21,741 nucleotides of DNA. Source: a virus. The position numbers and the translations under genes are program-made. Below are positions 3,171 through 19,671 of this stretch, piece after piece (within the stretch, counting starts at the first letter, position 1; each line of letters starts with the position of its first letter). The stretch spans positions 1-21,741 of the IMG/VR virus record IMGVR_UViG_3300044819_000019. One strand, written 5' to 3'. Under the pieces are notes generated by a model, which did not search any database, had not been told where the DNA came from, and worked only from the letters and a program-made list of their open reading frames with translations.

Positions 3171-6100
3171 CCGAGTACGTCCCCTTGTAAGATGTCTGAG
3201 GTGGGGCTAACACGGTTGAACTCACCAGCGTTGGCCCATTTGCTGCTGTAGCCTGAGTCCGTGTCGTCAAAGACGAACAATTGACCCTTGTGGCTTGCGT
3301 TGCGGGGATCATTCCGGCGACTGCGCAGGGTCGCTGTGGCCCCGACGTTCTTCACAAAGGTCCAGGTACAACTCCCGCCGCTGACCAGATCCTCGGCGAC
3401 ATACAATTTGCGTGTCCCACTGACATTGACAATGACAGCGATCTTTTTCCCGCGCAGCATGGCAATGCAGTCGCCCCTGTCGAAAACGGCATTACTGACG
3501 GGGTTGGTGATAGCTGTTGGCGTGGCTGATCCGTCATACCAATACAGGCACGACCCGCTAATTTCGCTGGCAAAGCCCACTACCACCTGCGGCGAACTGG
3601 AGCCTGTTTGAGAAACAGTGGCAGAACCCACCTCATAATAAGGGATGCAAATGCTAATCGGTGTGGCCGTGGGAGTTGCGAAACTCGAATAAGCGCCGCC
3701 CAGCGTGGTTGCCTTGAGGACTTCATTCTTGGCGGGAGCGTAGGAAATGCCGTTGACGCGGGCGAGGTCGAAACCCGCCAGCAGACCGGGGGTATCACCC
3801 AGCGCTAATGGACTGCCTACCGTTGCGCCGTAGTCGCTGCTGTACCGCATGTCGGCGGATGGACACGAGAAAGGATCAACGCCCGTGCCGCTGAAGGTGA
3901 GATTGATGACGCTGTTATTAACATTGACAGATCCAGAGTTGATGCCGATCACAAACCCACCGACGCCAGATCTATCTTCCGTGTGAGTGAAGGATAGATT
4001 CGTCCCCGGTCCAGGAAGAGGAGTAACGGGCGTCCCGTAATCCGTGTAGGGACCCGCATTAACCAGCGGGAAGGTGCGTATATTTACGTTGGATTCCGCC
4101 CCGGCACCACCACCAGAGTTATAGGTAAAATCGATGTGGCTAATGGCAGTCAGGCAATTGAACATTATCTCCAATTCGACATTCCACAACCCGCCGCCGG
4201 GTTCCGGTCCAGTGCCATTCCAGCCCTGACCAATCGTCCATGCTCCGAAGTCAACCTGCATTGCGGAAGCGTGGCTGGCAAGCAGAAAGTCCCAGGAATA
4301 GGACCATGAGGTCACAGGTAGCCCAGGCGTAAAGACTTCGACACTTCCCGGCGTGCCAGCCGCCCGGATCTGTGTGTACGCCCCGGCGAATGGCGTGCCT
4401 GTCTGCGTCCAGGCCGACGTGCCATCTACCACATTGGCGTTATAGAAGATGATGCTGTCCGTGCCGTTGTTCGCCAGGGCATAGACGGCGACTGCCCCGC
4501 CCGTGCTGCCAAGCTGGTCGAAGCAGGCGTCGGCCAGTTTGTAGCCGGACGGCAGCGGCGGCGTATAGGAGCGCCACGTCGGCGCAGCCAGCAGAATATA
4601 GTTCTGGCAGATGTACAGATCTGCGCCGCTGTCGCCCACCTCCAGCACGATCTCGCCCGTTTGGGCTGTTGTCGGCGGGGTGATCGGCGAGGCAGGCAAG
4701 CCGGCATCTGGAATGCTCGTCTCAGGTAACTCGAAGTTGAAGGCGGGCATTGGCGGGATGGTGGTCGGCGGGGTGATCGCCGAGTTGTTGATAATCGGGA
4801 CCGTCGCACCAGGGAAGCCGGACACGACAGGAATATACGTGACCTGCACCTGCCGGGTGCCAGCCTTGTTGTCGTGGCTGACGGTCACCGTCTTGACCAT
4901 CCACAGGGTGCTGCTGTCCAGTGCCTGTCCTGTCGTGCTATAGGAGGCGTCAAGGTCGATGATGAATAACTGGCCGAAGGAGGTCTCAATCCACCAGTAG
5001 CCGTCCGGGTGAGTCATGGTCAGTTCTGTCGTGTTGTTATCAATGACAAACTGAGTCCCGGCAAAAGCGTTCAACTGGGCCTGCGCACCCGCTGGCGTGA
5101 CGCCCGCCTGCAATATCTGGTTATTGAACTGCCCCTGATCCACGCCGCTGGCCTGCGCCAATCCCGGCGCACGGGACAGCACAGGAATAGGAACGGCATT
5201 CCCGCCAGGCCACGAAGCGCCATCGGCATTGATGAAGCCGTACTGTACGTACTGATTCATCTTGAGCGTGAACTGGCCCACAATGTCGTCGCCCGTCCAG
5301 GTCGCCACCTGCGTCAACTCCGAGGAGGGTGCGTCGTAGAAATCGGCGCGGGTGATGAGGGCCATGCGGCCATCCCGTGCAAACTCAATCGCCGATCTTA
5401 TCTGCTGCGCGATACCCTGCTGACCAGACACATTGTCGAACGCATTGCCACCAATGGTAGTGATCGTCGGGAACATGTAGGTATCGGTCAGGTCATTGCT
5501 GGTGAAATCACACAGATGCAGTACCTGAGTGTGCGTCTGGAGAAAGTGGATGCAGGCGCGCCAGGGCGTGTTGTTCTCAAGCTGATCCCAGGCTGTTGGC
5601 GAGGCGGCATTGGTGATCGCCAGAAGCTGCCCTTCGATGCGGGCCAGCCGTGAGCCGACGCCCTGCACCTCGAACTGTACTTCGCTGTAGGCGCTGTAGG
5701 TGGGATCAGTCTGGAACTGGTTTTCCTGTGTCTCAATCCAGCCGATAAGATCAATGTTGCCGAACAGACTGCCGCTGCTGTTGCCGAAGCCTTCATCACT
5801 GTACAACTCGTTCGTCCAGAAGATAGCCAACGTGCCGTTGAGCAGCGTGGATACGCCGTCATAGTATTTAACGCGCGCCGATGGTCCCTGCGCAATGTCG
5901 CGGGTAATCTCCACGCCCTCGAAGCCGTCGTTGGGCGGATAGGCGTCGGAGTGGGCCTTGACCAGGATGTGGCGGAAGTTGGTCACGCCCAGATCGTCGG
6001 TCGCATCGATGCGCACAAAGTATTCGCCAGCCGTAAACTGGTAGGTTACGTTGGCCGTGGCTGGATCGCCCGCAATGACGGTTGCTACGCCAGATCCGGT

Positions 6101-6739
6101 GGGGACAACGCTGTACTGGTAGGAGGCGATGCTGCCGCGAGGACGCGGGCTGGAACTGCCAGTGGCGTCGAAGGCGATGTCGTAATGACCAGCACTGTCC
6201 ACCCAATCGGCATAGGCTGTTTGCAGCGGCGCAGTGTCTGGTCCGCGAATGACGGGGGCCGGCGTCGTGTATGGATGGTTATAGTCTTCTAACTGCACCA
6301 CGTTGGGGGATGTACCAGTGGGCCGCGACAGGGCATCGATGAGGTCATAAGCGTAGAAAGCCCAAACGTGCGCTCCCAGGCCCAAAATATCGCTGAACTC
6401 ATTGACGTACAGAACGCTGCTGGTTGCCACGACATTGGCTACGCCGTCCATGCGGGCGCGCAGCCTGACCGCTGTGGGATAGCGGGGGTCGCTGGTCGGC
6501 GAGACGATGACGACCATGCCCTCGTCGATGTTGGTGTAACTGCCCGTGATGACGCTGGTGTAGGCCAGCGCCGCAGCCGTGCCGCCGCTAACCGCCGGAA
6601 CTGTGGCTGACAACTCGGCCTCGAAGGCGATGACGTTATCGCACAGCGAAATAAGCTGGTCCGCTTGCCAGTGCGCTTGCCGCAGGTGAGTATATTGCGG
6701 GCTGGTGACAGGTTGGTTAAAGGAGTAGGCTGTCGTCAT
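3167..6739 (-). CDS. Large tail hub/adhesin protein with PKD-like and propeller-like regions
   Basis: This 1190-residue protein starts with ATG overlapping the stop of the small tail gene before it (ATGA). Residues 1-160 are a beta-rich N-terminal region. Residues about 165-265 resemble a PKD/Ig-like domain (HYDIAFDATGSSSP ... YFVRIDATDD). Residues 270-640 read like a tail-hub or Tal-type region, with repeated HxD/TxD beta segments and TLWMVKTVTVSHDNKAGTRQ. Residues 655-692 form a Pro-rich linker with PPTT repeats. Residues 695-1190 look like a beta-propeller adhesin, with blade-like signatures such as MRYSSDYGATVG, CLYWYDG and GYSSKW. Residues about 806-957 seem to be a separate lectin or jelly-roll-like domain interrupting the propeller. 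The position between tape measure and fibre supports a tail-tip role in attachment and channel closure. The domain names are inferred from patterns only. Confidence 0.72.
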   Translation of the reverse strand: MTTAYSFNQPVTSPQYTHLRQAHWQADQLISLCDNVIAFEAELSATVPAVSGGTAAALAYTSVITGSYTNIDEGMVVIVSPTSDPRYPTAVRLRARMDGVANVVATSSVLYVNEFSDILGLGAHVWAFYAYDLIDALSRPTGTSPNVVQLEDYNHPYTTPAPVIRGPDTAPLQTAYADWVDSAGHYDIAFDATGSSSPRPRGSIASYQYSVVPTGSGVATVIAGDPATANVTYQFTAGEYFVRIDATDDLGVTNFRHILVKAHSDAYPPNDGFEGVEITRDIAQGPSARVKYYDGVSTLLNGTLAIFWTNELYSDEGFGNSSGSLFGNIDLIGWIETQENQFQTDPTYSAYSEVQFEVQGVGSRLARIEGQLLAITNAASPTAWDQLENNTPWRACIHFLQTHTQVLHLCDFTSNDLTDTYMFPTITTIGGNAFDNVSGQQGIAQQIRSAIEFARDGRMALITRADFYDAPSSELTQVATWTGDDIVGQFTLKMNQYVQYGFINADGASWPGGNAVPIPVLSRAPGLAQASGVDQGQFNNQILQAGVTPAGAQAQLNAFAGTQFVIDNNTTELTMTHPDGYWWIETSFGQLFIIDLDASYSTTGQALDSSTLWMVKTVTVSHDNKAGTRQVQVTYIPVVSGFPGATVPIINNSAITPPTTIPPMPAFNFELPETSIPDAGLPASPITPPTTAQTGEIVLEVGDSGADLYICQNYILLAAPTWRSYTPPLPSGYKLADACFDQLGSTGGAVAVYALANNGTDSIIFYNANVVDGTSAWTQTGTPFAGAYTQIRAAGTPGSVEVFTPGLPVTSWSYSWDFLLASHASAMQVDFGAWTIGQGWNGTGPEPGGGLWNVELEIMFNCLTAISHIDFTYNSGGGAGAESNVNIRTFPLVNAGPYTDYGTPVTPLPGPGTNLSFTHTEDRSGVGGFVIGINSGSVNVNNSVINLTFSGTGVDPFSCPSADMRYSSDYGATVGSPLALGDTPGLLAGFDLARVNGISYAPAKNEVLKATTLGGAYSSFATPTATPISICIPYYEVGSATVSQTGSSSPQVVVGFASEISGSCLYWYDGSATPTAITNPVSNAVFDRGDCIAMLRGKKIAVIVNVSGTRKLYVAEDLVSGGSCTWTFVKNVGATATLRSRRNDPRNASHKGQLFVFDDTDSGYSSKWANAGEFNRVSPTSDILQGDVLG

Positions 6740-7158: not shown

Positions 7159-9875
7159 GGCTTAATCACTCCCTCTAGCATGTCTTGCAGTTTGCCGACG
7201 GCCAGATTGACGATCTGGTCCGGGTTGCTGGCCCCGCTGATCTGGAAGATGGGTTGCAGCACAATCGACTGGCCGCCGCCCCCGCTGTTAGGATTGACGT
7301 TGCCGGAGCCAAAGGGAATCACCAGCGCAGCCGTGTTTGACCCAAAGGACGTTGAGCCGATGTTGACCTGCTCGAAGCCCGATGATCCCGGCTCGTTGAA
7401 GACGAAGGGATCGCCCGCATTGAAGCCGCCGCCGCCTGCGAAGACCGGCACCTGTTTCTTTTGCCCCGCCGAGGTATAGGTCTGCGACGGCGGGTTGGTG
7501 AGGTCGTTGATCGACGCCTGGATAATCGCCATCCGCTGCTGTTCCTGCGTCTGGAGCAGCGCCAATTCATCCTGAAGGCCCTGGCGGAGTACCACCAGCT
7601 TGCGCTGTTCAGTCGTGGTCAGGTCGTCGAGTTGCTGCTGTTCTGCCGTGCGCTGCGTGGCTAGCTTGCGCTCTTCGTTGGTTTGTTGTGCCGTCCAGGC
7701 CTGCTGAGCGGCCAGTTCGAGATCGTCGCGCTTACGTTCCTCGGCCAGCGTCTGCTGCTGTTCTTCCTGCTGGTAGGCGATCTGCTGGTCGCGCTGCGAA
7801 TTGGTCAGATGTTCACGCAAGTCATCGATCTGATTGTTGTAACGCTCATTTTCCTGCGAGACCTGCTGATCGCCGCTCTCTTTATTCTTGGCGAGTTGGA
7901 GAAAGTTGCGGTCCAGAAGCGCCTGCTGATCGCTGTTGTGCGCCTGATTCTGGATGTCAGCCAACTTCTGGAGATGGCTTTCCAGATCTTCGTTCTCGGT
8001 ATCCTGTTCATCGCGCACCGCTTTGGCGCGGTCATTATTGTACTTGGTGGTATCGTCTTCGAGTTGGCGCGCCAGTCCTGTGTTGGCCTGAGCCAGATTA
8101 TCCTGCAGCTTGGCGCGGATATCGGCATCCGCGTCGGCCATCGCCTGCTTGATCTGCGTCTCTTGCCGTGACTCTTTGGTAGCAATATCCAGCCGCGCAT
8201 TGGTATCGGCATCGAAACCAATGGTGTACTGCTGTTCGGCCTTGGCCTCTTTATCTTTGGCGTCAGCCTCGTCCTGTAAGTATTTTGTGTAAGTGTCGCT
8301 CGACTGCTGTATCAACGCAGCGAACTTCTGGTCCTCTGCCGCTGCATCTTTCGCTGCCTGGGCCAGGGCTTTCGTTGTCTCAGTCTGATCGTCGAGCGCT
8401 TTGTCTGCTGGAATAACGGTGCTTGTTAAATAATTTTGCTGCTCGGCATTGTCGGCCAGCGCTTTGTTATTGGCGGTAATGGCTGCCGTGACAGTCGCTG
8501 ATTTATCAGTGCCGTCCTGAAGAACCTTGTTGCTGGCCTCCAGACCTTCCTGTTCGCCCTTGAGATCGTTTAGGCGTTTTGCTGCTGCTGCCGAGGTGAG
8601 GTCGGAGAGCTGGGCGTGTTCTTTAGCCAGCGCTGTGACCTGATTACCCTTGTCAATTAAGTCCTGCTCGGCTTTGGCCTGCGCAGCGGCTGCATCGGCG
8701 GCTGCCCCTGACCCTTTCACACGAGCGGCGTAAACCGTATTATCAAGATCGCCCAGTTGCTGGGTCTGATCCTGCAAATCTTTAATTTTCTTCTCGGCGT
8801 CCTGGTAGCCCTGCGACCCCTGGATCTCATCGTGAGCGACATTGTGGGCCACAGGATCGTTGACGTTGCCGCCGTTTTTGCGGACCTGATCATCAATAAG
8901 CGCATTCTCGCCAGCGCGGAGATCGTCAATCTTCTGTTTGTTAGACTCAATCGTCTGCTGATTCTTGGTGAGATCCGCGTTGGCCTGGTCGCTGTTTTCA
9001 GTCGTGAGTTTGTTGTAATCGTCTTCGTTCTTGACCTGCCGCTCCAACCCGGAAGCAGCCAGATCGGCTTGCTCCTGGAGCGCTTTCAGGACAGCCACAA
9101 TGCCAGCGATTGCCGCAATAACTGCTACCACTGGTAGCGCCAGTGCAGCGATGCCCGCCATGCCAACGCCCATTGCGGTCAGCCCGTCCACCAGTGGCGC
9201 GAGTAAGCCAGGGGTCGTCTCAATGGCAGCGTTCAGTTGTGGGAGCAGGTCCGAGATGGACTGCAAGCCTTTGGTCAGGTACAGAATGTCCGCGCCGCCC
9301 GTGAGTGCCTGTGTGCCAGCGCCGCCCAGTCCGGCCATGTTGGCAAGTCCAGATGCCGCTCGGATGCCGTGCGCCGCGCCGAAGAGCGATCCGCCACCCC
9401 CGCCTCCGCTGCCATCATCCTCGGCAGGGCCAATCATGCCGCCTGTCTCGCCGTAGCCAATATTCTGTGCGCCACCGCCATATTGCCCGTTAACCAGACT
9501 GCCGCCTGCCGCATCATATTGGGCAGTCTGCGTGGCTGCCGATGCTTCATTGCGATAAGCGTCGGCCAATTCGTTGATTTTGTCGATCTGCGCCTGCATG
9601 GCAGTCGTCTGATCAATTGTCCCCTGGCGGAGACTATCTTGCTGCGCAATGATCGTACCCAGGTCTTCGTTCTTGAAGGCTTCGGCCTGCGCGTTAATCG
9701 TATCGAGCAGCGTGTTGGCGGCTTCGGTGGCCTTACTCATCGACTCGGCAGCGGACGTGCCGAAATCTGCAACCGTCTGTTTGGCAGCATCGAGACTCGC
9801 TGCAAACGCCTGACTGTCGAATTCTATGCCGAGACTGGCTAACTCTTCGTTGTCGCCACCTGGGTTATCGCTCAA
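7155..9875 (-). CDS. Tape measure protein
   Basis: This 906-residue protein starts at TTG (9873-9875), overlapping the upstream stop as TTGA, with an AGAGG site 6 bases upstream. No in-frame ATG lies near this point. Residues 1-120 are helical. A Gly-rich, low-complexity stretch follows (about 123-163, including a run of Gly). A long hydrophobic segment at about 229-263 (GMAGIAALALPVVAVIAAIA) is typical of tape measures that insert into the host membrane. Residues about 270-800 are almost wholly charged, Gln-rich heptad-like helix with many QQ and KDE clusters. The C-terminal 100 residues are a globular-looking Gly/Asn-rich region. With the common rule of about 1.5 Å of tail per residue, the tail would be near 130-140 nm. 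It sets tail length and is thought to help DNA entry. Confidence 0.92.
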   Translation of the reverse strand: MSDNPGGDNEELASLGIEFDSQAFAASLDAAKQTVADFGTSAAESMSKATEAANTLLDTINAQAEAFKNEDLGTIIAQQDSLRQGTIDQTTAMQAQIDKINELADAYRNEASAATQTAQYDAAGGSLVNGQYGGGAQNIGYGETGGMIGPAEDDGSGGGGGGSLFGAAHGIRAASGLANMAGLGGAGTQALTGGADILYLTKGLQSISDLLPQLNAAIETTPGLLAPLVDGLTAMGVGMAGIAALALPVVAVIAAIAGIVAVLKALQEQADLAASGLERQVKNEDDYNKLTTENSDQANADLTKNQQTIESNKQKIDDLRAGENALIDDQVRKNGGNVNDPVAHNVAHDEIQGSQGYQDAEKKIKDLQDQTQQLGDLDNTVYAARVKGSGAAADAAAAQAKAEQDLIDKGNQVTALAKEHAQLSDLTSAAAAKRLNDLKGEQEGLEASNKVLQDGTDKSATVTAAITANNKALADNAEQQNYLTSTVIPADKALDDQTETTKALAQAAKDAAAEDQKFAALIQQSSDTYTKYLQDEADAKDKEAKAEQQYTIGFDADTNARLDIATKESRQETQIKQAMADADADIRAKLQDNLAQANTGLARQLEDDTTKYNNDRAKAVRDEQDTENEDLESHLQKLADIQNQAHNSDQQALLDRNFLQLAKNKESGDQQVSQENERYNNQIDDLREHLTNSQRDQQIAYQQEEQQQTLAEERKRDDLELAAQQAWTAQQTNEERKLATQRTAEQQQLDDLTTTEQRKLVVLRQGLQDELALLQTQEQQRMAIIQASINDLTNPPSQTYTSAGQKKQVPVFAGGGGFNAGDPFVFNEPGSSGFEQVNIGSTSFGSNTAALVIPFGSGNVNPNSGGGGQSIVLQPIFQISGASNPDQIVNLAVGKLQDMLEGVIKP

Positions 9876-10390
9876 AGCCCAACCTCTTTAACTGCCTGTC
9901 TCACACAGCGCGTCCAGAAATCAATCGTCACCCGCTTGGTGTTGGCGAGAATGAGCTTCTGCGCCTCCTGGTACTGGCTACCCCAGCCCGTGTTGGCATG
10001 GCCCTGCACCTGGTACTTGGGGCCGTACACGTACTTCGCAGCCCAGTTCATGGAGATTACGCTGATTCGCGCGCTCAATGCCCCATAACTGACCTCCACC
10101 TGCCAGCTATTCTCCAACTCGCCTGACCGAATCCAGTGGCTACCATCACTGGCTGCACTGAATACACTGGAAGTAATCAGCCAGAAGTAGAAGCGCGCAC
10201 TCTTCTCCGTCGCAAACTCAAACGGCGAAGACGGCGGACCTGGTGGTTCACCAATCACGGCGCGCACCTGCTCTTGCAGATCTGGCGAGATCTCAGTGCC
10301 GATGCCCTCACGGAAGATACGCGCTGCCGTCTCTGGTATCTGCGCCAGCTTGGCCCACGCCCCGCCCAGCGTAAACGTCGTGCCAAACAC
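9872..10390 (-). CDS. Putative tail-completion/minor tail protein (HK97 gp10-like appearance)
   Basis: This 172-residue protein starts at GTG (10388-10390), with GGAGG 10 bases upstream, and overlaps the tape-measure TTG start. A short alpha N-terminus is followed by a segment with W-I-R-S-G-E-L-E-N-S-W (around residues 86-96), a beta stretch, and MNWAAKYVYGPKYQVQGHANTGW. That arrangement (tRSG-L..SW, then A-x-Y-V-x-G) resembles the HK97 gp10-like/minor tail gpZ-like families that act at the head-tail joint. I did not confirm the family. The location between the chaperones and the tape measure is not where gp10-like proteins usually sit; they are normally before the tail terminator. Confidence 0.5.
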   Translation of the reverse strand: MFGTTFTLGGAWAKLAQIPETAARIFREGIGTEISPDLQEQVRAVIGEPPGPPSSPFEFATEKSARFYFWLITSSVFSAASDGSHWIRSGELENSWQVEVSYGALSARISVISMNWAAKYVYGPKYQVQGHANTGWGSQYQEAQKLILANTKRVTIDFWTRCVRQAVKEVGL

Positions 10391-12137: not shown

Positions 12138-12535
12138 GGCGTCAGATCCGTAGAGAACATCAGCCTACCGGGCAACGTGTCGATTATCTCCTGCACCTCG
12201 TAGACGCGGTTCTGAAAGTAAAACGTGTCGCCGCGCTGCACGTCGGTGTTGGGAATGGTCGGATGGCTGCGATAGCCCATGGCTACGACGTACTGCTTCG
12301 AGATGGCAACCATAGCGTCCCGGTTCTCACCTGAGTCGCGGATGCTCTGTACCACTTCGAGACGCACCGTCTGCGGCTCAAGCGTGATATAAGTGCCATC
12401 GCCCAGGTCACGCTTGACGACGATGGTGCTGGGGCGCTCAGCAATGCGGTTGGCCGTATCAACGGCCAGTTGCTCCACATTCGGCTGCTGCGCAAAAGTC
12501 TGCACGCCAGACCAGATCGCCCCGCGATTACTCAC
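12134..12535 (-). CDS. Head closure/stopper-like neck protein
   Basis: This 133-residue protein starts at GTG (12533-12535), overlapping the previous stop as GTGA. It is mostly beta (PSTIVVKRDLGDGTYITLEP, VRLEVVQSI, DTFYFQNRVYEVQEIID), with a typical [FY]-x-[NV]-R-V-Y-x-V near the C-terminus, as in small neck proteins that plug the connector (stopper, HK97 gp7/SPP1 gp16-like). The size and the location between connector and tail terminator fit. There is no membrane or catalytic feature. The start has only a weak ribosome site, so translation may depend on coupling to the glycosyltransferase gene. Confidence 0.62.
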   Translation of the reverse strand: MSNRGAIWSGVQTFAQQPNVEQLAVDTANRIAERPSTIVVKRDLGDGTYITLEPQTVRLEVVQSIRDSGENRDAMVAISKQYVVAMGYRSHPTIPNTDVQRGDTFYFQNRVYEVQEIIDTLPGRLMFSTDLTP

Positions 12536-13629
12536 AGCGTCACCGCTTCCTTGTGCTTGCCGTTGGTGTGGACTACCGTCCCAGATGTCAGCGGATGATG
12601 AACTTCTTCGGCTGGCGGTGGTCCGCCCAGATGCTTGCCCATGACCTTCACCAGCTTCTGGGCAGCCATCTCATAGGTCTGGTTGTCACGCAGCCATTTG
12701 GCCGCTCGGATCGCCCTGGACCGCGCTTCGTCCTGGTGTCCGTAGACCCACAGCATCTTCTCGCAGATCTCGTCCAGGGACGGTTCGGCCCAGTCGCCGC
12801 CGCAGCCCTTCATGCCGCTGTCGCGCAGAGTGAAGTTGTCGAGCGGGATGGCCCAGGCATCGGCGTCATCCGCCGTGCCGCTCCAGCGCGTGACAATGGT
12901 CGGCACACCGCAGGCCGAGGCCTCGCGTGGCGGCATCCCATAGCCTTCACAGCGCGACGGGAACACGAAACAGTCCATCTGTGAGTAGACATCGGCCACG
13001 TGATCCACGTCTGCCTTCCAGATGGTCAGGCGATCATCCGTCGAGTACGAGAAGTCAAGGTTGGGCAGACTCCCCGGACGGCACTTGGTGAGCAATCTAA
13101 CCTCACGGTTGCGATGGTCGAAGGCGCGGTAGAACGCGGTCCAGACCTTATCATAGCCCTTGCGGTTGCCGCGATCTGCCAGACAGCCGAAGGTGAAAGG
13201 CCGATGCGGGTTGGGATGCGAAATCTTGCATTCGTCAGGGTCAATGCCCCCTGGTACAACCTCAATAGGAACTTTGACGCCTGCCTCTTCCATTACCGGG
13301 ATCAGCCAGGGCGATGGCACAAGGCACCACTGCGACTTATTGTTGATGTGTTCAGCCCAGTGGTCAGGCAAGCGCGTGCTTTCGTGCATGGTAAAGCAGA
13401 AGTTTCGGCCAGGGATATCGCGCATCTCATGCGGCGGCGTAATCATGACGGTTGCCACGCTGAAGTCCAGACCCGCAGCCCGCTGAAACCAGGCTGGCTT
13501 GTCCAGCGCCTCAATCTCAAACGGATAGAACTGGTGACCCAGCCGATTCAGCGCCTCGGCGAAACCGAGCGTAAAACGTCCGTAGCCGTCGTACCAAAGC
13601 CATTTGTAGCCGCCGATGTTCCCGCGCAT
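12532..13629 (-). CDS. Glycosyltransferase, GT4-type (GT-B fold)
   Basis: This 365-residue protein is a retaining GT-B glycosyltransferase by motif. The nucleotide-sugar domain has FGCLADRGNRKGYD (residues 148-160, with the basic R156-K157) and the family E-x7-E motif FPSRCEGYGMPPREASACG (E228 and E236), followed by GVPTIVTRWSGTADD. I placed the start at ATG 13627-13629, which overlaps the previous stop as TAATG and has AAGGAG 6 bases upstream. An upstream ATG at 13785 would add 52 residues inside the preceding gene and is not needed. It probably transfers a sugar from a nucleotide donor; acceptor and sugar cannot be read. In the neck operon it could glycosylate a virion protein or alter the host surface. 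It is not an assembly gene in known phages, so it looks like an inserted 'moron'. Confidence 0.85.
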   Translation of the reverse strand: MRGNIGGYKWLWYDGYGRFTLGFAEALNRLGHQFYPFEIEALDKPAWFQRAAGLDFSVATVMITPPHEMRDIPGRNFCFTMHESTRLPDHWAEHINNKSQWCLVPSPWLIPVMEEAGVKVPIEVVPGGIDPDECKISHPNPHRPFTFGCLADRGNRKGYDKVWTAFYRAFDHRNREVRLLTKCRPGSLPNLDFSYSTDDRLTIWKADVDHVADVYSQMDCFVFPSRCEGYGMPPREASACGVPTIVTRWSGTADDADAWAIPLDNFTLRDSGMKGCGGDWAEPSLDEICEKMLWVYGHQDEARSRAIRAAKWLRDNQTYEMAAQKLVKVMGKHLGGPPPAEEVHHPLTSGTVVHTNGKHKEAVTL

Positions 13630-14372
13630 TATCCTCTCCTTCGCACGCCCCACGGTCCAGGACCGTAGGGCGGTAGATACTGTAGTGATGTGGACGGCAC
13701 GCCGACCGACCAGGGGTAGGCTACCAATGGTGGTGGCACTCGCACCAGCGAGGCGAACTGCACCTGCCGATCTGCCTGCGCCCACTGTTCCCAGAACTCG
13801 GCCTGCTGCCTGACCTGATCGAACACCTGGCTTTTCTTTTCCTGGCTCTGTCCGGCCACGTAGTCATTCAGCCGACTCAGGTCAGCAGCCAGCGCGCGAT
13901 AGTCATACATGACGCCGAGATTGACGTTGAGCTTGGCGATGCCGTAATTGAGATTGAGTTCAGCGTCGGTGAAGGCGTACACGCCGCCCAGAGCGACCAC
14001 CATGATGGTCACGATGATGCCCACGCCGACCAGACCGCTGCTGTCAACCGTGATAACGGGTTGCGCAGCGTTAGCAAGTGTGCCGACGAAGTAGATGCTG
14101 TACGGCGCTGTGTTATTGATGGTTGAGCCGTTGTTCGGTCCATTGTTGACCATAACATTGCCCAGACCGACATTCGACAGTGCCGCCAGCGCGTTCTGTA
14201 CATCGCCCGGCGTGGCGTTATAGGCGAGGGCAGATGTGGTCTGACCAGCATACGAGATGGTGAAAGTGCCACTTGTCGCCCCGATGATGAGCAGTGTTTG
14301 CACTGCGCTCGATCCGGGGTCGGAGAGCTGCATCCGCACATACGCCAGTTGGTCAGCCGTCATGCTTGCCAT
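13629..14372 (-). CDS. Head-tail connector-like protein with inserted beta domain
   Basis: This 247-residue protein starts at ATG 14370-14372 with AAGGAG 6 bases upstream, set within the stop codon of the capsid gene. Residues 1-20 (MTADQLAYVRMQLSDPG) and 131-200 (VYAFTDAELNLNYGIAKLN, then long helices) together read like a small helical head-tail connector/adaptor (HK97 gp6-type). Between them lies a foreign block, residues about 22-130: a beta domain with GTFTISYAGQTTSALAYNAT and DVQNALAAL, a repeat type common in phage structural proteins. It closes with a hydrophobic run, LVGVGIIVTIMVVALGG. The C-terminus is Pro/Tyr-rich. Position after the capsid gene supports a portal-docking role. Confidence 0.68.
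   Translation of the reverse strand: MASMTADQLAYVRMQLSDPGSSAVQTLLIIGATSGTFTISYAGQTTSALAYNATPGDVQNALAALSNVGLGNVMVNNGPNNGSTINNTAPYSIYFVGTLANAAQPVITVDSSGLVGVGIIVTIMVVALGGVYAFTDAELNLNYGIAKLNVNLGVMYDYRALAADLSRLNDYVAGQSQEKKSQVFDQVRQQAEFWEQWAQADRQVQFASLVRVPPPLVAYPWSVGVPSTSLQYLPPYGPGPWGVRRRG
13636..13641 (-). promoter_or_regulatory. Ribosome binding site that fixes the glycosyltransferase start
   Basis: AAGGAG with 6 bases to the ATG at 13629. It lies inside the last codons of the connector gene, whose stop overlaps the ATG (TAATG). This site supports the short start over the ATG at 13785. Confidence 0.8.
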
Positions 14373-14382
14373 CGCCTACTCC

Positions 14383-15555
14383 TTAGTTGATCGTCGGATT
14401 CGCGTAGGCGACAACGCCCGCGCCGAACTCGCCAGCCGCACCCGCATAACGGGTTGCGCCGCACGACACACCGAACTCCAGTTCCAGGTCCACTTCCTTC
14501 AAGGGGAAGGTCGTGTTCCAGTCCGGGACTTCCAGGATCTTGACACCCAGGCCGAACTCAGGACGGTAGTTAACCGCCAGGGCGTTGGTCAGGCTGCCCT
14601 GATCGCCTGGGCAGTACACCCCGGCATAGCCCGCTGGTATGCGGTACGTCGCGTACATGCGGATGTTGCCATAGCCGCTGTTGTACGTGCCGATGTAGCG
14701 TCCACCGGACGGCGGGGTCGAGCCGAAGCTGCCCTTCTCGAAGAACTGGTTTCCAGTCGTCGCACCACCGCGATCAATGATCGCAATGTTCTCGACGGGC
14801 TTGATATAGTTCGTGAGATTCAGGATGGTTGCCACGTCGCTCTCGGACACGAAGGCCTTGTAGTCACCCGCGAGGCCATGCTCGTTGATGGTCTTAGCCA
14901 GCCCTGACAGCATGTCGCCGTAGGTGTAGGCCACGCCCGTGTCGGGGTTGGTCGTGCTGGAGTTGAAGGACAGGTAGTGGTTGTGCGATGACGTGAAGAC
15001 CTGGCCGTTCCACTGTGGCGGGGCGTACTTGACCGTCCCGGTGCTGCCATTGCAGAACGGCACGTCGTAGCCCGTCGATCCCAGCAGGTTTTCAGTGGTG
15101 GTAAAGAAGCGAGTGAGCAGCTTCACGTCCCACAGGTTGCGCAGCATCTGGTTGCCTGCGCGGATGGACGCCAGAATATAATCTGCCGTCATGTCGGCCA
15201 TGGCGCGCCAGTCGCCGCCGATGCCGTAGCCGTACACCTGACGGTCGATCATGTGACCGGCGATGTCGCCACGGATGAGTGGAACGCGCGATCCGCCGGA
15301 CAGCGCTTCCAGGGAGGGCAGTGTACCGCCATTGGGGTACATGACCTCGATCTTCTGTGTGGGGTAGAACAGGTCGCCCCAGACAGTGACCATCTCTTCG
15401 TTGAAGTCCTGCGCCGCAGCGCCAGCCATTGCCCGCAACTGCTCGTAGGTGGTTCCGCCCTTGAGCATCACGATTGCGAGTCTGCCGCCGTCTACACCAG
15501 TCGGGATAGGCTGGTTTTGGGCCAAGACACCATGGAATGCTTGTGCTAATGCCAT
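14383..15555 (-). CDS. Major capsid protein
   Basis: This 390-residue protein is preceded by a perfect AGGAGG 5 bases before the ATG (15553-15555), as expected for the most abundant virion protein. It lies after the protease/scaffold and decoration genes and before the connector. The sequence has no signal or membrane segment. Notable parts are an extended N-terminal region (AQDFNEEMVTVWGDLFYPTQ), a helix-rich middle (DWRAMADMTADYILASIRAG, MLRNLWDVKLLTRFF), and a beta-rich C-terminal half with GGRYIGTYNSGYGNIRMYAT. This fits an HK97-fold capsid protein. No N-terminal delta domain is evident, consistent with a separate scaffold. Confidence 0.86.
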   Translation of the reverse strand: MALAQAFHGVLAQNQPIPTGVDGGRLAIVMLKGGTTYEQLRAMAGAAAQDFNEEMVTVWGDLFYPTQKIEVMYPNGGTLPSLEALSGGSRVPLIRGDIAGHMIDRQVYGYGIGGDWRAMADMTADYILASIRAGNQMLRNLWDVKLLTRFFTTTENLLGSTGYDVPFCNGSTGTVKYAPPQWNGQVFTSSHNHYLSFNSSTTNPDTGVAYTYGDMLSGLAKTINEHGLAGDYKAFVSESDVATILNLTNYIKPVENIAIIDRGGATTGNQFFEKGSFGSTPPSGGRYIGTYNSGYGNIRMYATYRIPAGYAGVYCPGDQGSLTNALAVNYRPEFGLGVKILEVPDWNTTFPLKEVDLELEFGVSCGATRYAGAAGEFGAGVVAYANPTIN

Positions 15556-15570: not shown

Positions 15571-16008
15571 TTAAACGCTAGCCGGCGTGGTCTGGCCCGG
15601 ACGGACGAAGATGGCGTCGGCACCGACTGCGTTGCCGACGATGAAGTCATAGACGCCGCCACTTGGGGCTGCCGTGTCCATGCCGCCTGCGACAGTCTTG
15701 GAGACATAGATCACCTGACCATCGATCAGGCTGACCCAGCCGTAGACTGGTCCATGCACGCACACTGCGACCCAGCCACCAGCGTTTTCCTGCGTCTCGG
15801 CATAGAAGTTGGTCACACCAACCACGATACCAAGCGCGTGCGCCGTCTTGGAGGCTGAACCGATGGCCTGCTGGACCTGATTGTTGTCATCCAGATACAC
15901 GCAGTCACCGATATTGACGGTGCCGCCTGCGATATAGTTCAGGATGGTTGCGCCACGGTCATAGGAGGCCGAGGGGGAATGAGTGCTATAGGCTGCAACT
16001 GCGGTCAT
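15571..16008 (-). CDS. Capsid decoration-like protein
   Basis: This 145-residue beta protein starts at ATG 16006-16008 with GGAGGG 10 bases upstream and stops 15 bases before the capsid ATG. Motifs include GGTVNIGDCVYLDDNNQ, HALGIVVGVTNFYAET, VAVCVHGPVYGWV and AIFVRPGQTTPASV. Short Gly/Ala/Val-rich beta repeats of this kind occur in DUF2190-like and other decoration/head-stabilisation proteins encoded beside phage capsid genes. Likely role: trimeric cement on the mature capsid surface. It has no catalytic pattern. The family call is by appearance and gene order. Confidence 0.7.
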   Translation of the reverse strand: MTAVAAYSTHSPSASYDRGATILNYIAGGTVNIGDCVYLDDNNQVQQAIGSASKTAHALGIVVGVTNFYAETQENAGGWVAVCVHGPVYGWVSLIDGQVIYVSKTVAGGMDTAAPSGGVYDFIVGNAVGADAIFVRPGQTTPASV

Positions 16009-16012
16009 TCAG

Positions 16013-16687
16013 CTACCCTCCCATCACTTGTGCGCGCGCCTGCTTGGCAGACTCCTCGGTGTAGCGACCCGTCTTGGGGTCGTAACCGAAGTTATTCTGC
16101 GTCTGCTCAGCAACGCTTCCCTGCACGCCGACGATCACGTTGCCACCTGACAGGGAGGTGCGCAGCAACGCGGCTTGTGGCTCATACTTGGGCCACGCGG
16201 CAGTAGCAGCGGCATCAATGTTCTCTTTCTTGTTGCCGCCGTCCATCCCGGCCATCTGGGCCACGATGTACATCTTGAAGTTATCACGCGCCGACACGAT
16301 GGCCGCCTTGCCCTGGTCCGTGGTGACGTTCCAGCCAGCAAAGGGCGCTGCCGCTGCTTTGTCCAGAGTGTCGTCAAACTCACGCTGACGATACTCGGCA
16401 AGCTGCGTGCGGTTCTCAGCGTCACGTTTTTCCAGTTCGGTCACGCGCGTGGTCATTTCCGAGATCTGCTTCATCTCGGCAGCGGGCATCGTCTGCCCGA
16501 ATTCCTTGACAAAGCATTCATGCACGCCCTGACGATGTGCTGCTGGCAGCATCTCGTACACGGCGCTGGGTTCCATCTCCCGCACACGCATCTCCGCGCA
16601 ATGCTGGCGCTGTTCGGCGCTCATCATTTCGTGAAGTTCGTGGGGAGCCATCTGCTTGACTCGCTCCCGAAGTTCTTCTGGAGTCAT
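16013..16687 (-). CDS. Scaffold protein, probable nested in-frame gene
   Basis: The last 224 residues of the protease polyprotein can be made separately from an internal ATG at 16685-16687. It has an AAAGGAG site 8 bases upstream, better than the site of the full-length gene. The region is a long, charged, Met/Glu-rich helix (EELRERVKQMAPHELHEMMS, TTRVTELEKRDAENRTQLAE), as in phage scaffolds, ending in a Gly/Asn-rich tail. This copies the lambda C/Nu3 and related arrangement, in which the protease carries the scaffold as its C-terminal domain and the scaffold is also translated alone. The scaffold lines the procapsid and is removed on maturation. The internal start is inferred from sequence only. 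Confidence 0.66.
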   Translation of the reverse strand: MTPEELRERVKQMAPHELHEMMSAEQRQHCAEMRVREMEPSAVYEMLPAAHRQGVHECFVKEFGQTMPAAEMKQISEMTTRVTELEKRDAENRTQLAEYRQREFDDTLDKAAAAPFAGWNVTTDQGKAAIVSARDNFKMYIVAQMAGMDGGNKKENIDAAATAAWPKYEPQAALLRTSLSGGNVIVGVQGSVAEQTQNNFGYDPKTGRYTEESAKQARAQVMGG

Positions 16688-18166
16688 CTCGCTTACTCCT
16701 TTATTGCTCATTTCCGAAGTTGTCTCGAACTTCCCTCCCAGGGCGTCAAGCGACGCGCGCTCAGCCGGGGCGAAGTCGATGGTTTCGAGGTCCAGATTGC
16801 GCAGCCGCTGCGTCCCATCTGCATTCGTCTCGAAGTTCCCCTTGCCCCAGATACTGTTCGAGAGCGTGCTGCCCGCGGCTTTACGCTTGAGAACCATCTG
16901 GTGAAACGGGGTTTTTGGGTAGATGTAGGCCTTGCCAAAGAGGGTATCTCCCTGCCGCAGCGCACCTACCCACAGCGCCACGTCATCTGGGAACTCCCAG
17001 GACGATGCTTCCTCACTGACATGCCCCTGCCGCGCAGCGGGCTTCTTGGTGAGAACCTGCTGCTCGATCTCACGCAGCAACTGATCGTCGTACTTCAAAC
17101 CGTTATCTGAGACGGCATTCAGAACGCCCAGTGGTCGCACCACGAAAAGCGGTTCTGTGCTGGCGGCCCTGTCTTCTGCCGTCAACTTATCGAAGTCAAC
17201 CCCTGGCGCAAGAGGAACGTCAGGGTACTGACCGCGAAAGGCAAAGACAGGGGTGGACAGACGTATCTCTTTTACGCTGCCCGTGCTAGCCGTCGTTTCA
17301 TCGGGCTTTTTGCCCGTGTGAAGCCAATCTAAAAGGCGCTTTTGATCATCGCCACTGAAGAATTTGCGCACGGCAGTTGCCACGCGCTCCTTGATAGCAC
17401 CCGTGGCCGACTCTGGAATATCCAGTTCGTTGCCACGGTATGCGCCGTTGGCAACCGCTTCAACCGCGTCGTGGACATGCGCAGCATCGCCGATCTTCAG
17501 TTTGCGGCCAGACGGTGGACCGTCCTTGGGAATATAAGCCCACACTTCGTCTGGACTGTCGGCATCGTAACCAGTCTCTGAGACAGAGACATCGTAAACG
17601 CCTGCTTCTGAAACTTGGTTCGTCATAAGTGTTCTGTCCTTAAACTCGGATAAAGAGGTGCTGCCCAGCAGCGGATAGTCGCTGCGCTTGTTGGCTAGCG
17701 TCAGCGTGAAAGAGTCGACCTGACACGGGATGGGGGTCAGATCCATCTCCGGCGTCGGAATATCCTTCGGCAAGTAACCAATGGTGACGTGAGGGGTAAA
17801 CCCGTGGTTCAACACTGGATCAATATCCTCACTGCGTGCCGAACTGAGCAGTAAGCCACGCAGGGCAGCCAGTCCAGGCGCGTCGAAGTTCAGGACCAGC
17901 GGGTTGGGATCGCTGTCCACAAAGCGCGTGATGCCGTTAATCGTTCCCTGGAGCGGGGCAATGTTCTCGGCCACGCTAGTCAGATCCCGCTGCATCTCGG
18001 CCACGTCGTCTGGATTCAGATCTGCCGCCTCACCCAGATAGGCGAGGGTCAGGTGCATATCCTTAGGCTTCTCGGCGTACTTCGGCAGATACTTCTCGGC
18101 CAACGCGACAAGCTGGTCGGTCACAGAAGCAGGCGGGAAGAAGGCGATCATTGCGCCGGTGTTCAC
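16013..18166 (-). CDS. 2H phosphoesterase / prohead protease / scaffold polyprotein
   Basis: This 717-residue protein starts at GTG (18164-18166), overlapping the previous stop as GTGA, with GGAGG 6 bases upstream. Four parts are visible. Residues 1-165 form a 2H phosphoesterase (2'-5' RNA ligase-like) domain with the paired motifs H38-L-T40 and H126-V-T128. Residues about 190-290 contain a helical DUF6582-like stretch (IGDAAHVHDAVEAVANGAYR). Residues about 335-485 look like a prohead protease, with a GH (H382), a conserved SNSIWGKG (S436/S438) and a hydrophobic LETIDFAPAE strand; catalytic H and S are plausible there. Residues 494-717 form the scaffold. A second possible internal start is M181, with AAGGA 10 bases upstream; it would drop the 2H domain. 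Position before the capsid gene fits a maturation protease/scaffold. Confidence 0.8.
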   Translation of the reverse strand: MNTGAMIAFFPPASVTDQLVALAEKYLPKYAEKPKDMHLTLAYLGEAADLNPDDVAEMQRDLTSVAENIAPLQGTINGITRFVDSDPNPLVLNFDAPGLAALRGLLLSSARSEDIDPVLNHGFTPHVTIGYLPKDIPTPEMDLTPIPCQVDSFTLTLANKRSDYPLLGSTSLSEFKDRTLMTNQVSEAGVYDVSVSETGYDADSPDEVWAYIPKDGPPSGRKLKIGDAAHVHDAVEAVANGAYRGNELDIPESATGAIKERVATAVRKFFSGDDQKRLLDWLHTGKKPDETTASTGSVKEIRLSTPVFAFRGQYPDVPLAPGVDFDKLTAEDRAASTEPLFVVRPLGVLNAVSDNGLKYDDQLLREIEQQVLTKKPAARQGHVSEEASSWEFPDDVALWVGALRQGDTLFGKAYIYPKTPFHQMVLKRKAAGSTLSNSIWGKGNFETNADGTQRLRNLDLETIDFAPAERASLDALGGKFETTSEMSNKGVSEMTPEELRERVKQMAPHELHEMMSAEQRQHCAEMRVREMEPSAVYEMLPAAHRQGVHECFVKEFGQTMPAAEMKQISEMTTRVTELEKRDAENRTQLAEYRQREFDDTLDKAAAAPFAGWNVTTDQGKAAIVSARDNFKMYIVAQMAGMDGGNKKENIDAAATAAWPKYEPQAALLRTSLSGGNVIVGVQGSVAEQTQNNFGYDPKTGRYTEESAKQARAQVMGG
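16696..16702 (-). promoter_or_regulatory. Internal ribosome binding site for the nested scaffold
   Basis: AAAGGAG lies 8 bases before the in-frame ATG at 16687, inside the protease coding sequence. Such a well-spaced site inside a gene is unlikely to be there for the protein sequence alone, and it precedes exactly the start of the charged helical region. Confidence 0.72.
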
Positions 18167-19671
18167 AGCTTGCCTCCAAACAGGAGACTGAGGAACTTGC
18201 GGCTGAGTGGCCCGATAAGATCGGCAATGGAGCGCTTGTCGCCAGCGTTGGCGCGCTTGACTTCCTCGCGGATGCGCTCGGTCACGGCTGCCGGATCGTC
18301 TACTTCAATCCACTCCTCGCCACACAGGCATTCGGGGTGATAGGTCGGCAAATGCTCTGTGTCATCGGCTGGATAGGGTCCGCCAGCGACCATCTCATCG
18401 CAGATGTCGATGCCCTTGTGGGCGGGCGAGGTATAAGGCTGGTACATCGCCACATAGGGATTCTGGCGCGCCGCTTTGAGATCGGTGCGGCTGTAGACTT
18501 TGGCCGTGTCAGATCGGGCGAGGCGCAGCGCCTCATAACCGCCAGATCCGTTGATAAGATAGTCTTGCAGATCATGGTCAATCTCTGCTGTGGGCAAGCC
18601 ACGACCAATGGCCTCACGCAGGAAAGTATCAATGCGCCGCCGCAGATCACCCGCCACGCCCCAGATGCGGTCCACCAGGCGCTTGCCGTCTGGCCCAGGC
18701 CACTCGTGGATCGGCTCGTCCATCTCCTGTACGCCTGCTACGAAGGGATCAACCGTCGCGTATTCAAGGGCGCGCTGGAGATCCGGGGGCAGGTACTTGC
18801 GCATAATCGCCGCCTGTTTGGCGCGCGCTGCTTCAGCCGCTTTCCAGAACAGTTTCCACAGCGTGGCAAAGTAGACTGAATTCGGAGAGACCTGACCGCG
18901 CAGGGTCGTGTAGGGCTGGAACATGCCGTCCTGCGTCGGTTGGCCCAGGATAACCTGTACCACAGCCCGCGCCGCTTCGAGACGCACCGACTCCAGCCGC
19001 TCCAACGGCACAATACCTTTGGGTCCAGTGTTCTGCTGCAAGATGTGGCCGATCTGGGCGTGGATAGCTAGCAGCACGTCCCGTCGGATAGCCGTTTCGA
19101 CCTCGGTCAGCACATCCAGGCGCTTGGCCTCATGCGAAGTCTGGACCATTTCATGGATGCGCATGGGATGTACGCGGCTGTAGATGAAACCAAAGCGTGC
19201 GGCAAGGCGTTCAACGGCCAGATTGCGTGCTTCGCGCTCCAGTTCTGGCGGGGCGTAGTCATGGCCGGCCAGTTCGGCCTGCGCGCGTTCGACTTCGCTG
19301 TCGAAGCGATCCAGGATGGCCTGCGCCAGCGGCTCAGAGTAGGTCGGGAATTTGGCCGTGTACTCGTAATATTGGTGCGTGTCGGGCGTGATGCCGACAG
19401 CGCGGATAGTCAGGCCGTAGCGGGCAGCCAGCGCCAGATCGTCTTTAGATAGCGGCTTCCCCTCTGGGTGGTTATGGGTCAACACGCCCAGGCACGCCTG
19501 ATTTAGTTCGGCGGGGGTGAAGGTCACCTCGTCGATGCCGCCGGTCCGCTCAACGATGGTTTTTCCCTGAGCGTCAAGCAGCAGGGCATGTTCCTGCTGG
19601 TGATCTGAGCGGTAATGCTGCTCGAAAGCGGCAATCTTGCTGGGTGCGCTGGTCTGGCTGTTATTGCTCAT
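18163..19671 (-). CDS. Minor head (morphogenesis) protein with N-terminal JAMM/RadC-like domain
   Basis: This 502-residue protein starts at ATG overlapping the portal stop (ATGA). The C-terminal part (about 330-452) fits the Mu gpF/SPP1 gp7 head morphogenesis family: RLARSDTAKVYSRTDL, ICDEM (C424-D425) and H445-P-E-C448-L-C450, a typical Cys/His ending. The first 100 residues are unlike that family. They read E27-H-A-L-L-L-D, then a beta segment, VLTHNHPEGKPLSKDDLA (H66, H68, S75, D78) and a following helix, which matches the RadC/JAMM order E...HxHP...SxxD. The spacing from the second H to S is six residues, one less than the usual seven. The middle (110-330) is helical. The gp7/gpF proteins sit inside the capsid by the portal and may leave with the DNA. 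The peptidase or deamidase activity of the N-domain is inferred. Confidence 0.78.
   Translation of the reverse strand: MSNNSQTSAPSKIAAFEQHYRSDHQQEHALLLDAQGKTIVERTGGIDEVTFTPAELNQACLGVLTHNHPEGKPLSKDDLALAARYGLTIRAVGITPDTHQYYEYTAKFPTYSEPLAQAILDRFDSEVERAQAELAGHDYAPPELEREARNLAVERLAARFGFIYSRVHPMRIHEMVQTSHEAKRLDVLTEVETAIRRDVLLAIHAQIGHILQQNTGPKGIVPLERLESVRLEAARAVVQVILGQPTQDGMFQPYTTLRGQVSPNSVYFATLWKLFWKAAEAARAKQAAIMRKYLPPDLQRALEYATVDPFVAGVQEMDEPIHEWPGPDGKRLVDRIWGVAGDLRRRIDTFLREAIGRGLPTAEIDHDLQDYLINGSGGYEALRLARSDTAKVYSRTDLKAARQNPYVAMYQPYTSPAHKGIDICDEMVAGGPYPADDTEHLPTYHPECLCGEEWIEVDDPAAVTERIREEVKRANAGDKRSIADLIGPLSRKFLSLLFGGKL

Follow-up and report, generated by a model that had tools for sequence, protein, structure and literature searches.

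The minus strand of the window (the whole 21,741-base virus record analyzed here; G+C content, 58.5%) encodes two adjacent head proteins, each with an enzyme domain at its N terminus: a JAB/JAMM domain in the minor head protein P1 and a 2H phosphoesterase domain in the protease/scaffold-like protein P2. Both domains were identified by conserved motif residues and by fold, are encoded in one operon, and recur in fusion with phage head proteins. The best reading of these observations, to which we give a probability of roughly 60%, is that P1 and P2 are head-assembly proteins doubling as carriers of injected enzyme cargo. The idea of phage heads as vehicles of injected enzymes consists mostly of predictions so far; P1 and P2 offer a pair of small domains that fold well and whose putative catalytic residues are pinpointed, on carriers whose location is well understood.

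Head module of the window

The genes follow the order portal, P1, P2, small protein, and major capsid protein (Table 1), with the portal gene immediately upstream of P1. The minus-strand open reading frames (ORFs) of P1 and P2 given in the first-pass annotation were confirmed. The portal and P1 genes (ATGA) and the P1 and P2 genes (GTGA) overlap by 4 nucleotides, as genes of a coupled operon do, so translational coupling of the three is probable. Both proteins had been expected in or at the capsid, which agrees with the membership of the two carriers in a portal-MuF-protease-capsid module. P1 has a recognizable MuF domain and follows the portal gene directly, as a minor head protein of the MuF/SPP1 gp7 type; its MuF region matched phrog_1657 and seven other PHROGs at E values of ≤0.001, and its matches to TIGR01641 and PF04233 were below cutoff. 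The small protein is possibly a decoration protein, given its place in a gene order that matches Micrococcus phage Kurnik, and the major capsid protein resembles those of Kurnik and Predator. Exact-peptide scans revealed no close IMG/VR relatives of P1 and P2, and tblastn searches with the portal gave no match in phages. Elsewhere in the window, a family-4 glycosyltransferase (PF13692; also PF20706, “GT4-conflict”) is encoded among the tail genes (12532-13785, minus strand), overlapping the tail gene at 13629-14372.

Table 1. Head-module features of the window; residue numbers refer to the protein named
Feature	Coordinates	Strand	Evidence
Major capsid protein	14383..15555	-	phrog_3990 7.8e-14
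Small protein between P2 and major capsid genes	15571..16008	-	no family match
P2, 2H phosphoesterase plus head-protease/scaffold-like protein, 717 aa, GTG start	16013..18166	-	
P2 C-terminal scaffold-like region, 490-717	16016..16699	-	between protease-like region and capsid genes
P2 protease-like region, about 295-480	16727..17284	-	phrog_3219
P2 phrog_19463-like segment, 203-274	17345..17560	-	
P2 2H domain, 1-170 (H38xT40, H126xT128)	17657..18166	-	PF13563, left-out profile, AF2, Foldseek
P1, minor head protein of 502 aa; JAB module N-terminal, MuF domain C-terminal	18163..19671	-	
P1 MuF (SPP1 gp7/Mu F) domain, 327-452	18316..18693	-	phrog_1657 3.2e-19, phrog_4728, phrog_115
P1 full transferable JAB module, 10-166	19174..19644	-	tblastn matches
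P1 JAB/JAMM domain, 10-113 (E27, G36, H66, H68, S75, D78, R90)	19333..19644	-	left-out profile, invariant residues, AF2, Foldseek
SPP1-type portal protein, 586 aa	19668..21428	-	PF05133 E=3.1e-7, phrog_64

Proposed delivery of the two domains

The MuF prototype, gp7 of SPP1, is targeted by the portal to the procapsid interior and helps infection to start; of the virions lacking it, only about 25% are infectious (PMC6316719). By analogy with gp7, the MuF domain of P1 would bind the portal and place P1 within the procapsid, bringing the N-terminal JAB module, a hydrolase of the Zn-dependent type, into the head. P2 would act as an internal protease/scaffold-like protein of the head, with its 2H domain entering the procapsid alongside. 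Trapped with the DNA, both domains would reach the host at injection. The 2H domain would probably hydrolyze a 2',3'-cyclic, 2'-5', or cyclic-oligonucleotide phosphodiester (RNA ends or a defense second messenger) and the JAB domain a peptide, isopeptide, or nucleotide-type bond, and we infer that the phage benefits from these activities.

Several observations support the cargo model: the conservation of the motifs, the folds, the switching of 2H domains between carriers, and the presence of JAB domains on MuF, portal, and MuF-InPase proteins. In addition, the injection of 2H domains fused to MuF or portal proteins was independently predicted (Iyer et al. 2017, PMC5512222; PMC9503650). Against it, several JAB ORFs have no MuF within the stretch fetched, some JAB domains lie in non-head regions, and the MuF domain of P1 is below the Pfam cutoff. 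Since maturation often entails the cleavage or expulsion of head proteases and scaffolds, the 2H domain of P2 may be absent from the mature virion.

The 2H domain of P2 and its relatives on phage head proteins

The first-pass annotation described P2 as a 2H domain before a protease. The 2H domain is real, with H38, T40, H126, and T128 all at the positions reported there; what follows is a phrog_19463-like segment, a protease-like region, and a scaffold-like C terminus. P2 scored above the cutoffs of Pfam families PF13563 (E = 3.1e-12) and PF02834 (E = 1.3e-8). The HxT/HxT motifs are invariant in 24/24 aligned 2H domains, and the collection scan had queried stretches of the domain other than these motifs. 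AlphaFold2 modeled the domain with a pLDDT of 94.3 and a pTM of 0.87, and the closest fold was the Deinococcus radiodurans CPDase (5h7e; E = 6.4e-10; TM score, 0.71), followed by a Thermus 2'-5' ligase and Escherichia coli LigT, with Acb1 farther away (7t26; E = 2.1e-5; TM score, 0.55). A profile search of PDB sequences ranked the folds in the same order. With two HxT motifs and a 2H fold, P2 belongs to the 2H phosphoesterase superfamily, and it falls short of the ThpR equivalog TIGR02258 (33.3 versus 65.7 bits).

In the rest of P2, residues 203 to 274 are 30% identical to the corresponding segment of a polyprotein joining 2H and capsid (L069). The protease-like region matches phrog_3219, which is of unknown function, with no Pfam protease hit; sister 2H proteins match the S78 and S78_2 protease families. 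His382 and Ser433 or Ser438 are candidate catalytic residues, and residues 490 to 717 appear scaffold-like from their position and composition.

Fusions of 2H domains to MuF or portal proteins, with a proposed role against nucleotide-activated defense, have been described (Iyer et al. 2017, PMC5512222; PMC9503650, 2022), so 2H domains on phage head proteins have been predicted before, and that of P2 is a new carrier arrangement of this prediction. P2 shares with these polyvalent proteins a 2H domain on a head protein, the late-gene context, and the predicted packaging and injection; in contrast to them, its 2H domain is N-terminal on a protease/scaffold-like protein. Carriers of this type are also present in Arthrobacter and Microbacterium phages and in two further records (L093 and L096). 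Overall, 2H domains were found at the portal C terminus (L074, L075, L077, L079, L083, and L085), between portal and MuF in a single protein (L072, L073, and L088), with an S78_2 protease (Edmundo gp18, ValentiniPuff gp7, L093, and L096), with an S78 protease plus capsid (L068), in capsid polyproteins (L069, L081, and L086), and after MuF (BayC gp11). The nearest relative of the window's head module, L074, has a portal that is 29% identical to that of the window and ends in a 2H domain, a MuF gene without JAB, and a protease-scaffold-like gene that is 25% identical to P2 residues 295 to 527 (E = 1e-17) and lacks 2H. A 2H domain on the portal and none on the protease-like gene is what would be expected if delivery by the head matters and the carrier does not, and the movement of 2H among several head proteins likewise suggests that head delivery, rather than any one carrier, is selected.

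An alternative is that the 2H domain is not injected and works late inside the cell as an RNA end-healing enzyme or RNase, its fusion to the protease serving expression or release by maturation cleavage. The closest 2H folds and profiles are indeed RNA 2',3'-cyclic phosphodiesterases, and fusions to proteases and protease-capsid polyproteins suggest release by cleavage. However, Pfam revealed no RNA ligase or kinase among the 20 ORFs scanned in the window, which may be a partial contig; the C-terminal fusions to portals put 2H on a permanent part of the virion; and in the survey of Iyer et al. (PMC5512222) these 2H versions were never linked to RNA ligases. We consider this alternative unlikely, though it fares better than the others discussed below.

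Some of the 2H carriers have unusual architectures. Single ORFs of ~900 to 1,140 amino acids combine 2H with the major capsid protein (L067, L068, L069 to L071, L081, and L086/L087), with the S78 protease of L068 lying between the two. The window also encodes a 172-amino-acid protein without a Pfam match (9872-10390, minus strand), whose relatives (31 to 36% identical) adjoin the 2H-capsid polyproteins of L067 to L071. In L091, the halves of a 2H domain, with one HxT each, lie in different overlapping frames (4941-5300 and 5264-6472), reflecting either a sequencing error or a frameshift.

The JAB domain of P1 and its phage clade

The JAMM-like N-terminal domain attributed to P1 proved genuine, with E27, H66, H68, S75, and D78 all in place, and these metal-site residues (Glu and HxH...S..D), together with the JAB fold, assign it to the JAB/JAMM superfamily. 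Its boundary had to be redrawn from residues 1 to 110: the transferable module reaches about residue 166 and consists of JAB plus a helical tail that also occurs in JAB modules at the C termini of other MuF proteins, with tblastn matches to residues 12 to 166 in L020, L023, L034, and L043. The profile searches and structure predictions proposed in the first-pass annotation recovered both domains. Profiles built without the window scored the JAB domain of P1 at E = 6.9e-20, using other phages only (0/1,000 shuffles scored), and the 2H domain of P2 at E = 6.2e-37; AlphaFold2 gave the expected JAB and 2H folds, the former with a pLDDT of 91.0 and a pTM of 0.82. The best PDB folds for the JAB domain were RadC (2qlc; probability, 0.99; E = 1.7e-3) and Pyrococcus furiosus JAMM1 (5ld9; probability, 0.94). 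The TM scores against them are modest (0.41 to 0.46), indicating a divergent JAB. Among predicted viral structures, it matched RadC proteins and several “minor capsid proteins.” The JAB profile retrieved only designed beta-propeller artifacts from PDB sequences, and phmmer searches of the PDB with P1 gave nothing meaningful.

P1 shares the JAB fold and the E...HNHPxG...S..D signature with RadC-type JABs (PF04002; Chlorobaculum tepidum RadC, 2qlc), and hhalign aligned its JAB to a RadC with a probability of 86.5 (E = 4.5e-6). However, it does not belong to RadC proper: its score is below the Pfam cutoff (E = 0.0059; 17.0 versus 22.1 bits), its HxH-to-S gap is shorter by one residue, it lacks the HPREV stretch, and it is carried on MuF/portal-type proteins. 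It belongs to a recurrent phage clade. A DNA pattern for THNHPxGxx[FL]SxxD found 50 viral loci, and E27, G36, H66, N67, H68, P69, G71, S75, D78, and R90 are invariant in 39/39 aligned JAB domains, even though E27, G36, and R90 lie outside the search pattern. Collection scans used smaller alignments, because the 39-member JAB alignment and an eight-member 2H alignment were too diverse for this purpose. The clade has the spacing HxH-x6-S-x2-D, one residue shorter than that of RadC (x7). In a second genome scan, with the peptide THNHP[SE]G as the sole requirement, 7 loci resembled the phage clade in having the x6 spacing and an ExRA stretch; the other 18 had HxH-x7-S-x2-D, nearly all with a RadC HPREV-type stretch. 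Only two of the 49 phage-type JAB proteins, the window and two phage records included, matched Pfam RadC at an E value of ≤0.01, and at least 22 matched head-morphogenesis PHROGs. No Pfam family matched the clade above cutoff, and the JAB half of the pair points to a recurrent phage family lacking a Pfam family of its own.

The JAB domain is usually C-terminal on MuF, and the N-terminal order of the window is rare: a locally built MuF profile identified 20 MuF-JAB ORFs, two JAB-MuF ORFs (the window and L052), and no MuF in the rest, although this profile misses some (L006 is above the Pfam MuF cutoff and not above the local one). The other carriers are portals (L055/L066) and MuF plus InPase (L051/L057). 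Some JAB domains occur elsewhere, near tail genes (L061) or as a secreted protein (L122). The latter is short, has an apparent signal peptide and THNHT in place of THNHP (1220-1735, minus strand; G003), and is encoded by a phage that also carries a 2H-capsid polyprotein. In L035, L052, L055, L066, L060, and L102, a linker-like motif, F-D/N-P-x-Q-P/A-R-D-x-x-G-R/K-W-x-x-GGG, was observed near JAB, portal-JAB, and ART-like domains, where it might serve as a signal for processing or for targeting to the head.

The JAB domain is the more novel half of the pair and seems to represent a widespread, apparently undescribed phage enzyme family. The survey of Iyer et al. (2017, PMC5512222) placed RadC only in the polyvalent proteins of conjugative elements. 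We found no mention of JAB on MuF in the literature, which is weak evidence given the thin coverage of subscription papers. Tentatively, the clade may consist of widespread metallohydrolases that are delivered by the head, are exchanged between MuF, portal, and InPase carriers, and act on incoming phage or on host defense during entry, here along with a 2H nucleotide hydrolase.

Alternatively, the JAB domain might serve as a maturation or self-processing peptidase of the head, for instance by cleaving P1 or another head protein, and not as an effector aimed at the host. It has a metallopeptidase fold, and phage polyvalent proteins commonly include peptidases that act in processing. Nevertheless, a protease-like region is already present on P2, the related head modules of L074 and Edmundo have no JAB on MuF, and the module switches termini and carriers, which does not resemble a maturation enzyme dedicated to a single cleavage site. 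We regard this role as improbable.

Counter-defense and co-occurrence of the two domains

A counter-defense role for the JAB domain of P1 and the 2H domain of P2 is plausible. The specific form suggested in the first-pass annotation, a pair in the style of Cap2/Cap3 and Acb1, did not hold up. P1 matched none of the PADLOC families, Cap3/BilB and other defense JABs among them, at an E value of ≤1. P2 had no match to the Pfam Acb1 family (PF23474), for which some relatives gave weak scores below cutoff, and was nearer to LigT/ThpR.

Nor is the pair conserved. The survey for co-occurrence, also proposed earlier, found both domains in only two other lineages, in each case unlinked. Within the fetched 10-kb stretches, JAB and 2H occur together in the window only; the suggestion that only the window has both was ruled out by searches of whole records. 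A JAB was found in 3/36 2H records (three near-identical phages with the secreted JAB and the changed motif THNHT), and a 2H in 1/52 JAB records (a portal-2H fusion about 17 kb from the JAB). These counts are lower bounds, since most records are fragments. Adjacent, head-linked JAB and 2H domains were present in the window only, among the records searched.

These results bear on a virion-borne anti-CBASS pair, in which an Acb1-like 2H would act on cyclic oligonucleotides and a Cap3-like JAB on conjugates made by Cap2. Acb1 and a LigT-like enzyme of avian poxvirus, both of the 2H/LigT fold, degrade cGAMP; Acb1 structures are among the fold matches of P2, and related phage 2H domains gave weak Acb1 Pfam scores (L010, 0.0011; L081, 0.00047). 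However, P2 is nearer to LigT/ThpR in both sequence and fold, P1 is nearer to RadC, for which the absence of a ubiquitin-tail groove has been argued, JAB and 2H are rarely in one record and then unlinked, and PMC10097602 weakens the argument from Cap3. Iyer et al. (2017, PMC5512222) inferred that nucleic acids or nucleotides are likelier substrates of RadC-type JABs than are ubiquitin-like proteins. Such a pair is thus doubtful, slightly more so than a maturation peptidase. Finally, inactive enzyme domains do occur in MuF proteins (Mu F has an inactive PBECR domain), but JAB and 2H domains that had lost catalysis and served as structural or binding modules are very improbable here, with all motif residues invariant in 39 JAB and 24 2H domains at about 20 to 40% identity.

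Comparison with known systems

P1 and P2 are best filed under phage head-cargo (polyvalent) proteins: their architecture and gene order join disparate enzyme domains to virion proteins in a late operon. Other enzyme domains have been noted on similar carriers, such as Nudix domains fused to MuF, portal, and capsid protease (PMC9503650, 2022). The ADP-ribosyltransferases T4 Alt and Alt-VIP2 fused to MuF follow the same logic of head-packaged, injected enzymes, which is predicted here for P1 and P2, whose enzyme classes are different. MuF polymorphic toxins (Jamet et al. 2017, PMC5576092) likewise add an effector domain to MuF, but theirs is C-terminal and followed by a small immunity ORF, whereas the effector of P1 is N-terminal; P2 comes next with a 4-nucleotide overlap, so no small immunity ORF follows P1. 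A toxin-immunity arrangement was therefore ruled out for P1. In the case of Acb1, an anti-CBASS nuclease, P2 shares the 2H fold with HxT/HxT; unlike Acb1, it has no match to the Acb1 profile, is nearer to LigT/ThpR, and is not a stand-alone protein.

ADP-ribosyltransferases were also observed near 2H genes. Gordonia phage Chidiebere (L010, 4737-6817) has a stand-alone 2H gene close to the portal gene; the gene directly after the 2H gene carries the annotation of a VIP2-like ADP-ribosyltransferase. In L124 (7712-10318; G075), a portal-2H fusion is followed by a single gene for two ADP-ribosyltransferase-like repeats, both of which come after an identical peptide, HYGPGPHPGTGTSQDVHGGDG.
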